Source: Nitrososphaerales archaeon (lineage in GTDB: Archaea > Thermoproteota > Nitrososphaeria > Nitrososphaerales > Gagatemarchaeaceae). Taken from it: a stretch of DNA of 49,513 nt. The translations under genes and the position numbers were made by a program. A model generated the notes under the pieces. That model was not told the DNA's origin and made no database searches. It was given only the letters and a program-made list of their open reading frames with translations. This document shows, piece after piece, positions 4,111-6,658 of the stretch. How positions within the stretch are numbered: position 1 is the first letter of the stretch; the number at the start of each line of letters is the position of its first letter. The stretch spans positions 1 through 49,513 of the forward strand of contig JACWAI010000091.1 of assembly GCA_014874415.1 (NCBI GenBank), written 5' to 3'.

Positions 4111-5058
4111 TTGGACGTGATCGAGTCCATCACCGAAGTGGCGAAGAAGCTCCCGAAAGGGTATTCGAAGATAGGGGACGACGTCGCACTGGTTCCTCCT
4201 GGAGAAGGGAAGCTGGTGCTCAAGGTGGACATGCTCGTGGAGCACACCGACGTCCCTCGGGGGATGACCTACAGGCAGGCGGCCAGAAAGGCGGTGGCGA
4301 TGTGCGTGAGCGACTTCGCTGCGAAGGGTGCGAGGCCCGATTCTTTCATGGTTTCTCTCGGCCTTCGAAAGGGCGTGACCCGGGGAGAAGTGGATGAGCT
4401 TGCTCTGGGATTCGGAGATGCAGAACGGGAGTGGAAGGTCCGCCTGGTCGGCGGGGACACGAACGAGTCGCAGGAGCTCGTCATCGATTGCGCCATGGCT
4501 GGCTTCGCCGAGAGCATCGTAGGCAGGAAAGGGGCGAGGGCAGGGGATGCGCTCGTGGTGACAGGTCTGTTCGGATACCCTCCCGCTGGACTGGAAATTC
4601 TAGAGCATGGAGCTGCTGCCGAACCCCTGTTTGAGAAGAGGGCCAGGTCGAGCGTCCTCTTGCCGGCGCCGAGCCTGCGGCTGGGGCGGGCACTGGCTCC
4701 CTACCTCTCCTCGGCCATGGACTCGAGCGACGGGCTGGCCAGGAGCCTTCACATTCTCGCGAAGGAGAGCGGGGTGGGTTTCGAGTTGACGTCTCTGCCC
4801 GTGGGCGTTGGCGTCGACAGGTTTGCTGCAGCCAACGGGCTGCAAGCGGAGGAGCTCGTCTTGGAGGGAGGAGAAGAGTATCTGATCGTCGGGACGGTCC
4901 CGAAGAGGAAGACTGCGTCCGCGAAGGCAGCCGCGCGCAGGGCGGACGGACAGCTCATCGAGATAGGCAGGGTCACGGCTCGACCAGGGCGTGTCGAGCT
5001 AAGAACCAGGGGCGGTGGCTCGCCCATCAGGGACGTGGGCTGGACGCATCTAAGATGA
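4111..5058 (+). CDS. thiL: Thiamine-monophosphate kinase
   Basis: A 315-residue ThiL, which phosphorylates thiamine monophosphate to the active cofactor thiamine diphosphate. The N-terminal IGDDVALV segment, the VDMLVEHTDVP metal-binding region, the VGGDTNES glycine-rich motif at about residues 114-121 and the MDSSDGLA motif near 200 are characteristic of the PurM/ThiL fold. Start is TTG at 4111. The gene follows the first phosphohexomutase by 13 bases, and its 3' end overlaps the convergent second phosphohexomutase by 9 bases. Full length, with no missing motifs noticed. Confidence 0.92.
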   Translation: MDVIESITEVAKKLPKGYSKIGDDVALVPPGEGKLVLKVDMLVEHTDVPRGMTYRQAARKAVAMCVSDFAAKGARPDSFMVSLGLRKGVTRGEVDELALGFGDAEREWKVRLVGGDTNESQELVIDCAMAGFAESIVGRKGARAGDALVVTGLFGYPPAGLEILEHGAAAEPLFEKRARSSVLLPAPSLRLGRALAPYLSSAMDSSDGLARSLHILAKESGVGFELTSLPVGVGVDRFAAANGLQAEELVLEGGEEYLIVGTVPKRKTASAKAAARRADGQLIEIGRVTARPGRVELRTRGGGSPIRDVGWTHLR

Positions 5059-6417
5059 AGCCGACTTCACGATCCTTTCGAACTTCTTGACGAGCTGGTC
5101 GGCGCCCTCCTGTGTCTCTGACTCGGCGAAGATCCGTATGATCGGCTCGGTGCCGCTCGGCCTGACGAGGACCCAGGAGCGCTCCTCCGTCCAGATCTTC
5201 AACCCGTCCACCCTTTCGACCTCCCCCTTGGCCTGGCGTTCGACGGCCTTCAGGACCGCGTCAACCTTCTTGCGGCTGACCTCGACCTTGGTCTTGGCCT
5301 GATGATATCTGGGGACGACGAAGGACAGGGCTCTTGAGAAAGACATGCCTCTTCCCGCGAGGCATTCGAGCATCAGGGCGGTGGTCATCCCGCCGTCCCT
5401 CACCGCTATGTGGGGCGGATAGGTGCACCCTCCGTTCTCCTCGAACCCGAAGATGGCACCCCGTTCCAGGATCGTGCTTGCCAACTCTACGCTCCCGACC
5501 CTAGTCCGCATCACCTTGGCTCCGTGCTTCTTAGCCACAGCCTCGATCGCCTGGCTTGAAGCCACTGACGTTACCACCGTCCCTCCCTTGTTCCTGTCCA
5601 GGACGAAGTCGGCCAGCAGGCACCCGCTCTGGTCCCCCCAGAGTACTCGCCCGTTCTCGTCGCAGAATATCGCCCTGTCCCCGTCGGCGTCGTAGGCCAC
5701 GCCGAAGTCTGCTCCCGTCGATTTCACTGCGGCCGAAAGGTCGTTCAGGGTGTCCGGCGTCGGCTCCGGTCCTCGCCCGGGGAAGCTGCCGTCCACCACC
5801 GAGTTCAGGGTGACGAGCTTGCACCCCAAAGATTCTACGAGGTAGGGCGCCGCCACAGATTGGGCGCCGTCGCCTAGGTCCATGACGACGTTGAACTTCC
5901 TGTCCGCGATCGCTTTGATGTTCACCTTCGAACGGATACCGTTCAGATAGTTCCTGACGACGGAAGGTTCGCCCCTCGCTACCCCGATCGACTTCCAGTC
6001 GGCCCTCGTCTGTGACTTGTCGAAGTAGATCTTCTCTATCCTCTGCTCGTCCAGGTGAGGAACTTCGACCCCCTCGGGACCCGAGACCTTGAGGCCGTTG
6101 TACTGGGGGGGATTGTGGGAGGCCGTCACCATCACCCCGCCTTTGAAGCCCAAGGTCTTGACGCCATACTGCAGCGCCGGGGTGGGGACGAGGCCTGCTT
6201 CTGCGACGTCCCTGCCAGAACTCAGCAGGCCCGAGACCGCCGCGTTGGCGACGGCCGGGCTCGAAAGCCTCCCGTCCTGACCCAGGAGTATCTCACCGCT
6301 CCCGAAGTAGGTGCCCATCGCCTCCGCGAGGCTGATCACAAAGTCAAGGTCGTGGGTCACCCCGGGGACGAACCTTACGCCGTTGGTCCCGAAGAGCCGC
6401 TGCTGGGTTGCGGCCAA
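5050..6417 (-). CDS. glmM: Phosphoglucosamine mutase-like phosphohexomutase
   Basis: A 455-residue phosphohexomutase with the opening RLFGTNGVR typical of archaeal GlmM/phosphomannomutase proteins. The phosphoserine loop VTASHNPP has its catalytic serine at residue 100, DADGDR metal ligands are at 243-248, a sugar-binding GFEENGG motif is near 324, and a C-terminal RPSGTEPIIRI phosphate loop is present. It likely makes glucosamine-1-phosphate for UDP-GlcNAc, though phosphoglucomutase activity is possible. The TTG start at 6417 is supported by a TATA box about 28 bases upstream, giving a leaderless transcript. Its 3' end overlaps thiL convergently. Confidence 0.88.
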   Translation of the reverse strand: MAATQQRLFGTNGVRFVPGVTHDLDFVISLAEAMGTYFGSGEILLGQDGRLSSPAVANAAVSGLLSSGRDVAEAGLVPTPALQYGVKTLGFKGGVMVTASHNPPQYNGLKVSGPEGVEVPHLDEQRIEKIYFDKSQTRADWKSIGVARGEPSVVRNYLNGIRSKVNIKAIADRKFNVVMDLGDGAQSVAAPYLVESLGCKLVTLNSVVDGSFPGRGPEPTPDTLNDLSAAVKSTGADFGVAYDADGDRAIFCDENGRVLWGDQSGCLLADFVLDRNKGGTVVTSVASSQAIEAVAKKHGAKVMRTRVGSVELASTILERGAIFGFEENGGCTYPPHIAVRDGGMTTALMLECLAGRGMSFSRALSFVVPRYHQAKTKVEVSRKKVDAVLKAVERQAKGEVERVDGLKIWTEERSWVLVRPSGTEPIIRIFAESETQEGADQLVKKFERIVKSASS

Positions 6418-6450: not shown

Positions 6451-6534
6451 TTCCGATTTTTGGCTGTTTCATGGGCAGAATGGGCGGGTATCGGGCCGCA
6501 AAGGCTTATTTCGAAACCCAGGTCGAGGGCCGTC

Positions 6535-6658
6535 GGGCCCGTAGCGCAGATCTATGAGAGCGGAATACGGATAGCGCGGCAGAGCGTCGCGCCGAACCTT
6601 CTAAGCTGTAGAGAGCTTAGACTCGCAGAGGTCGTGCGTTCAAATCGCACCGGGCCCG
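6535..6658 (+). tRNA. tRNA-Arg(UCU) gene with three apparent short insertions
   Basis: The outer parts form an excellent cloverleaf. Acceptor GGGCCCG (6535-6541) pairs fully with CGGGCCC (6651-6657), with discriminator G at 6658. The T arm GTGCG-TTCAAAT-CGCAC (6634-6650) is perfect. D-stem halves GCGC lie at 6544-6547 and 6574-6577, and the anticodon loop CTTCTAA (6598-6604) reads UCU. A standard 75-nt tRNA is recovered by removing 16 nt from the D loop (about 6553-6568), 14 nt inside the anticodon stem between positions 30 and 31 (6583-6596; stem then GCAGC/GCUGU), and 19 nt in the variable loop (about 6610-6628). I could not fit classical bulge-helix-bulge junctions, so exact ends are inferred from the cloverleaf. 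A TATA-like CTTATTT lies near 6504-6510. Confidence 0.85.

Follow-up and report, generated by a model that had tools for sequence, protein, structure and literature searches.

Three mini-introns very probably interrupt a functional tRNA-Arg(UCU) gene in a Nitrososphaerales archaeon

The window analysed here, a 49,513-nt stretch of DNA from a Nitrososphaerales archaeon, contains at positions 6535-6658 (plus strand) a 124-nt segment that opens with GGGCCCG and closes with CGGGCCC and a discriminator G. Neither ARAGORN nor Rfam called a tRNA in the raw segment, raising the question of whether it is a working gene and, if so, how its transcript could be spliced. A first-pass annotation had read it as a tRNA-Arg(UCU) gene carrying three inserts of 14-19 nt, whose removal leaves a paired 75-nt cloverleaf. 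This reading held, with exact coordinates and with orthologues found both with and without the inserts. The three-intron gene is real and very probably functional: 6535-6658 is almost certainly a working tRNA-Arg(UCU) gene with three archaeal bulge-helix-bulge (BHB) introns of 16, 14 and 19 nt at tRNA positions 15/16, 30/31 and 45/46.

All parts of the precursor gene lie on the plus strand. Exon 1 (GGGCCCGTAGCGCAG, 6535-6549) holds tRNA positions 1-15 and is followed by the 16-nt intron 1 (ATCTATGAGAGCGGAA, 6550-6565) at 15/16 in the D loop. Exon 2 (6566-6582, positions 16-30) precedes the 14-nt intron 2 (AGCGTCGCGCCGAA, 6583-6596), which lies inside the anticodon stem at 30/31, and exon 3 (6597-6611, positions 31-45), containing the anticodon UCU, precedes the 19-nt intron 3 (AGAGCTTAGACTCGCAGAG, 6612-6630) at 45/46 in the variable loop. 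Exon 4 (6631-6658, positions 46-73) supplies the T arm, the acceptor 3′ strand and the discriminator G. The noncanonical placement of the inserts, earlier likened to that in Thermoproteales, was thus borne out with exact boundaries at all three sites. Without them, the gene gives a 75-nt cloverleaf with all stems paired and an anticodon loop CUUCUAA. A conserved A+T-rich box (AAAGGCTTAT, 6500-6509, plus strand) lies 26-35 nt upstream, and almost every relative has a AAAGCTTATGTCGAAA-like box equally far upstream; its presumed role is likely that of an archaeal BRE/TATA promoter. The divergent neighbour at 5050-6417 (minus strand) is a glmM-like phosphoglucosamine mutase gene, named glmM in annotated relatives, which served as the synteny anchor. 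AGA codons are in use in the window, with 22 occurrences across nine ORFs.

Introns were located using a script that removes as many as three stretches fitting BHB geometry and then rates the cloverleaf left behind. The interior of the gene was then shuffled 1000 times, with the acceptor and T arms left intact and no more than three BHB-type deletions permitted. The observed score was 70, against a shuffled mean of 47 (sd 3.9, best 64), and none of the 1000 shuffles reached 70. Since about 1% of the shuffles fully paired both inner stems, the cloverleaf by itself is only moderately convincing, and it is the comparison with orthologues that confirms, at the level of sequence, the reality of the three inserts.

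The window GlmM shares 67-83% identity with its counterparts in named genomes, which are Nitrososphaerota (Thaumarchaeota) MAGs; tRNA-Arg(UCU) sits just upstream of glmM in these, as it does at most of the 30 additional loci drawn from the same genus and family. Among the orthologues, the inserts occur independently of one another, and the removal of each is exact. Intron 1 is absent from L066, L069, L071, L073, L081 and L162, and elsewhere present but variable. Intron 2 is missing in most relatives, leaving the exact join GGCAG|CC, and is carried by L054, L061, L065, L071, L073, L077, L079 and L081. Intron 3 is absent from L066, L067, L039, L078 and L162. All three occur together in the window, L054, L055, L061 and L065, many orthologues have the D-loop and variable-loop inserts only, L071, L073 and L081 have the 30/31 and variable-loop inserts with no D-loop insert, and L069 has the variable-loop insert alone; L066, L067, L036, L037 and L039 carry a 37/38 intron instead. 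At the same locus in genus g2, L162 is an intron-free 75-nt gene that agrees at 70 of 75 positions with the mature tRNA predicted from the window. All 23 distinct parsed orthologues reduce to exactly 75 nt, and among these genes the exons are 95.5% identical on average, the introns 57-80%. Mapped onto the GlmM tree, on which several branches are weakly supported, the pattern requires a minimum of five changes at 15/16, six at 30/31, and two each at 37/38 and 45/46. Position 25 also varies: UCU orthologues with the 30/31 intron all have C25, which pairs with the intron, those without it mostly have U25, and CCU copies have C25 with or without the intron.

The first-pass annotation had found no strict BHB and suggested that an unusual endonuclease might be needed. 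Neither point survived, as motifs were identified at all three sites, with strict central geometry at 30/31 and 45/46 and a relaxed form at 15/16. The 30/31 motif consists of a 4-bp helix (CGGC/GCCG), 3-nt bulges AG^A and AA^C, and an inner helix GC/GC. At 45/46, a 4-bp helix (CUGU/GCAG) is flanked by 3-nt bulges AG^A and AG^G, with an inner helix GAG/CUC. The 15/16 site has a 3-bp helix (CGC/GCG), bulges AG^A and AA^U, and an inner helix UCU/AGA; in its full layout (GCGC AG^A UCU...AGA GCGG AA^U) three of four core pairs form, the outer end being a G-A or G-G opposition in most copies. BHB geometry was found at fixed positions in 32 (15/16), 14 (30/31) and 21 (45/46) distinct UCU or CCU copies. 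The inner helix at 45/46 is kept in 21 distinct copies, and conservation at 30/31 stops at one or two pairs. In L078, both sides of the 15/16 helix have changed, GCGC/GCGN becoming GCUC/GAGC, such that GCUC of the D stem now faces an intronic GAGC. The 15/16 layout recurs in tRNA-Asn and tRNA-Met of the host genome and, on reading by hand, in tRNA-Lys. By inspection, no stable outer exon-exon helix (full hBHBh′) was seen at the three sites, because such a helix would compete with the cloverleaf; relaxed BHB forms that lack it still count as family members (PMC4090602).

Core-helix pairing takes up exon positions 10-13, 25-28 and 40-43 without overlap, and therefore the three hairpins can coexist. 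In folding predictions for single segments, each hairpin was the optimal structure or close to it; for the whole 124-nt precursor, the predicted minimum-energy fold is a long-range alternative (−54.9 kcal/mol), with the three-hairpin form at −35.5 kcal/mol. This result counts against the proposed structure, as do the missing outer helix and the poorly conserved inner helix at 30/31. An 8-bp hairpin in the precursor fold (UCUAAGCU/AGCUUAGA) was considered as an intron structure and rejected, being lost in most relatives.

Both endonuclease subunits, which the first-pass annotation had proposed to look for, are encoded in the host genome. Two genes match PF01974, and NCBIfam places both in endA. 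The L031 ORF, closest to the Aeropyrum pernix catalytic subunit (3p1z, 3ajv), retains GPGIDHAP, including the His mutated in 3ajv; in the L032 ORF, a Pro aligns with that His. From these sequences, L031 and L032 are assigned as the separate catalytic and structural subunits of an ordinary two-gene, crenarchaeal-type (αβ)2 endonuclease. As regards the Crenarchaea-specific loop linked to relaxed substrates, alignment with A. pernix shows no gap in the N-terminal segment PLGIPKPKDFEFDAPL. This heterotetrameric class is reported to occur in Thaumarchaeota and Crenarchaeota and to accept relaxed motifs (PMC4090602; PMC12397907). The ligase RtcB is also encoded, and since both (αβ)2 subunits and RtcB are present, no unusual enzyme is needed.

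The boundaries, motifs, orthologues and enzyme genes can be read directly from sequence; for transcription, cleavage, ligation and the order of splicing, we infer the following pathway. The acceptor and T arms could form within the precursor while the introns pair with the neighbouring exon strands 10-13, 25-28 and 40-43; each BHB or relaxed BHB hairpin would keep a portion of the D or anticodon stem from pairing until it is excised. The (αβ)2 endonuclease would cleave within the 3-nt bulges, and RtcB would ligate the exons, leaving those strands free to pair into the D and anticodon stems.

Could the locus instead be a pseudogene, decayed or damaged by insertions, while some other tRNA reads the AGA codons? 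The failure of ARAGORN and Rfam to recognise the raw gene would fit such decay, and another Arg(UCU) copy could be missing because the assembly is incomplete (91.6%). Against this, the exons are conserved with all stems paired while the inserts vary, the upstream A+T-rich box is conserved, and inserts of like kind occur in most tRNA genes of the host genome. An intronless copy elsewhere had been named at the outset as the observation that would speak against the gene; it was looked for, and no second Arg(UCU) gene, intronless or other, was found in the 91.6% complete genome. We consider a pseudogene highly improbable.

Retention of the inserts, as extensions of an enlarged, unspliced tRNA, would suit their shortness and their ability to form hairpins of their own, but the 30/31 insert interrupts the anticodon stem, with a core helix that takes up exon positions 25-28, close relatives and L162 have the tRNA gene without each insert, and all boundaries obey BHB geometry, making this reading barely credible. 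It is also very unlikely that the introns are real but excised via an unusual endonuclease or motif: the 15/16 helix, with only 3 bp and a G-A or G-G at its outer end in most copies, might suggest as much, but the bulges at 30/31 and 45/46 are standard, the genome encodes both (αβ)2 subunits, the catalytic one closest to the A. pernix structures, and this class is known to take relaxed motifs (PMC4090602; PMC12397907). The preferred reading remains a working gene with three spliced BHB introns.

Rfam detected 26 tRNAs above threshold in the host genome; the addition of three weaker tRNAs, L112 and the window gene brought the number of genes examined to 31. About 22 of the 31 carry about 34 introns, mostly 13-28 nt, an approximate count in which multi-intron genes may still be missed. 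This corresponds to approximately 1.1 introns per tRNA gene; the value for Thermoproteales is 0.84 (PMC8450103). The introns occupy 15/16, elsewhere in the D arm, 27/28, 29/30, 30/31, 37/38, 44/45, 45/46, 48/49 and 53/54. Five genes in the genome intron table were placed by hand, and for L010, L019, L022, L027, L029, L078, L126, L144, L145 and the four-intron genes the intron positions come from manual reading or from fixing the boundaries; the specificity of a class-wide pattern search was too low to map introns outside the window's family. Two near-identical tRNA-Leu(CAA) genes (L021, L030) were observed on two contigs of the host genome, one truncated by the contig end, a duplication that possibly reflects a strain mixture in the bin.

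Some related genes carry four introns. The tRNA-Arg(CCU) gene L112 (G000:C39:5592-5730, minus strand) has introns of 16, 16, 13 and 19 nt at 15/16, 30/31, 37/38 and 45/46, and its orthologues L134, L151 (from a near-complete genome), L152 and L153 have the identical set of four sites; the orthologue L121 has no introns and gives the same 75-nt tRNA. Genus g7 has four introns in the UCU gene as well (L077, L079). In the CCU genes with four introns, the core helix of the 37/38 intron contains one C-A mismatch. Three is the maximum number of introns per archaeal tRNA gene given in PMC8450103 and PMC3293823, which the CCU gene exceeds. Among the papers searched, none reports four introns in an archaeal tRNA; the two in which the phrase occurs concern group II introns. 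In a separate observation, the UCU (L066) and CCU (L137) genes of G025 have similar 15-nt 37/38 introns (CACATGAGTGGAGTG and CACGAATGTGGAGCG), a likeness that suggests transfer or gene conversion between paralogues.

An insertion of 0.7 kb with a LAGLIDADG-like ORF precedes tRNA-Arg(CCU) L112 (G000:C39:5731-6448, minus strand), lying between two copies of exon 1, and a similar arrangement is found at L166. At both, a conserved flank is followed by a lone exon 1 (GGGCCCGTAGCGCAG), TCCA, an ORF and then the complete gene, which restarts with exon 1, 718 or 703 nt on. The insertion ORFs of L112 and L166, from two species, are 55% identical. The 211-aa insertion ORF itself had no match in Pfam, NCBIfam or PDB; a third homologue, in G018, matches PF14528 LAGLIDADG_3 below threshold (E 0.0014). 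Sequence reading places this LAGLIDADG-like ORF inside an apparent 23S rRNA gene (L168, G018:C1, around 1020306-1020641), and it is probably an intron-encoded homing endonuclease. The arrangement at L112 and L166 is consistent with entry of a homing-type element into the tRNA gene at the 15/16 site, and the exon-1-flanked insertion hints at a way in which introns are gained. Tentatively, LAGLIDADG-type mobile elements that insert at tRNA-Arg genes and duplicate exon 1 up to 15/16 might seed or reshuffle the mini-introns.

Multi-intron archaeal tRNA genes are a known kind, as in Thermoproteales, and the lineage is new. Like Pyrobaculum and other Thermoproteales (PMC8450103; PMC4033280), the host has several short noncanonical BHB introns per gene (up to three in that order), an (αβ)2 endonuclease and interruptions in more than half of its tRNA genes. 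Unlike those Thermoproteales hyperthermophiles, it belongs to a Nitrososphaerota lineage, for which record names suggest acid mine or tailings-type samples, and its paralogous CCU genes have four introns. In Caldiarchaeum subterraneum tRNA-Thr(GGU) (PMC3293823), intron presence likewise varies at one locus among close relatives, and a 5′ tRNA fragment, an element with a gene for a DNA enzyme and a restored intron-containing tRNA stand in a row, as at L112 and L166. However, the element there encodes a recombinase rather than a LAGLIDADG-like ORF, and the hosts are thermophilic Aigarchaeota; many more orthologues are compared here. Atabeyarchaeia and Freyarchaeia (PMC11291895) are also intron-rich non-thermophiles with many noncanonical and multiple introns, but are Asgard archaea.

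A lineage within the window's order, in a family separate from the large sampled ones, joins the short list of tRNA-intron-rich archaea. As ARAGORN and Rfam miss tRNA-Arg(UCU), such genomes can seem to lack essential tRNAs. This little-studied group is unusually rich in mini-introns, with four in some tRNA genes, and because single introns come and go at one locus among dense close relatives, the long-standing problem of how tRNA introns are acquired becomes directly testable. If the element model is true, extant species would allow intron gain, loss and transfer between paralogues to be followed, in genes with as many as four introns.
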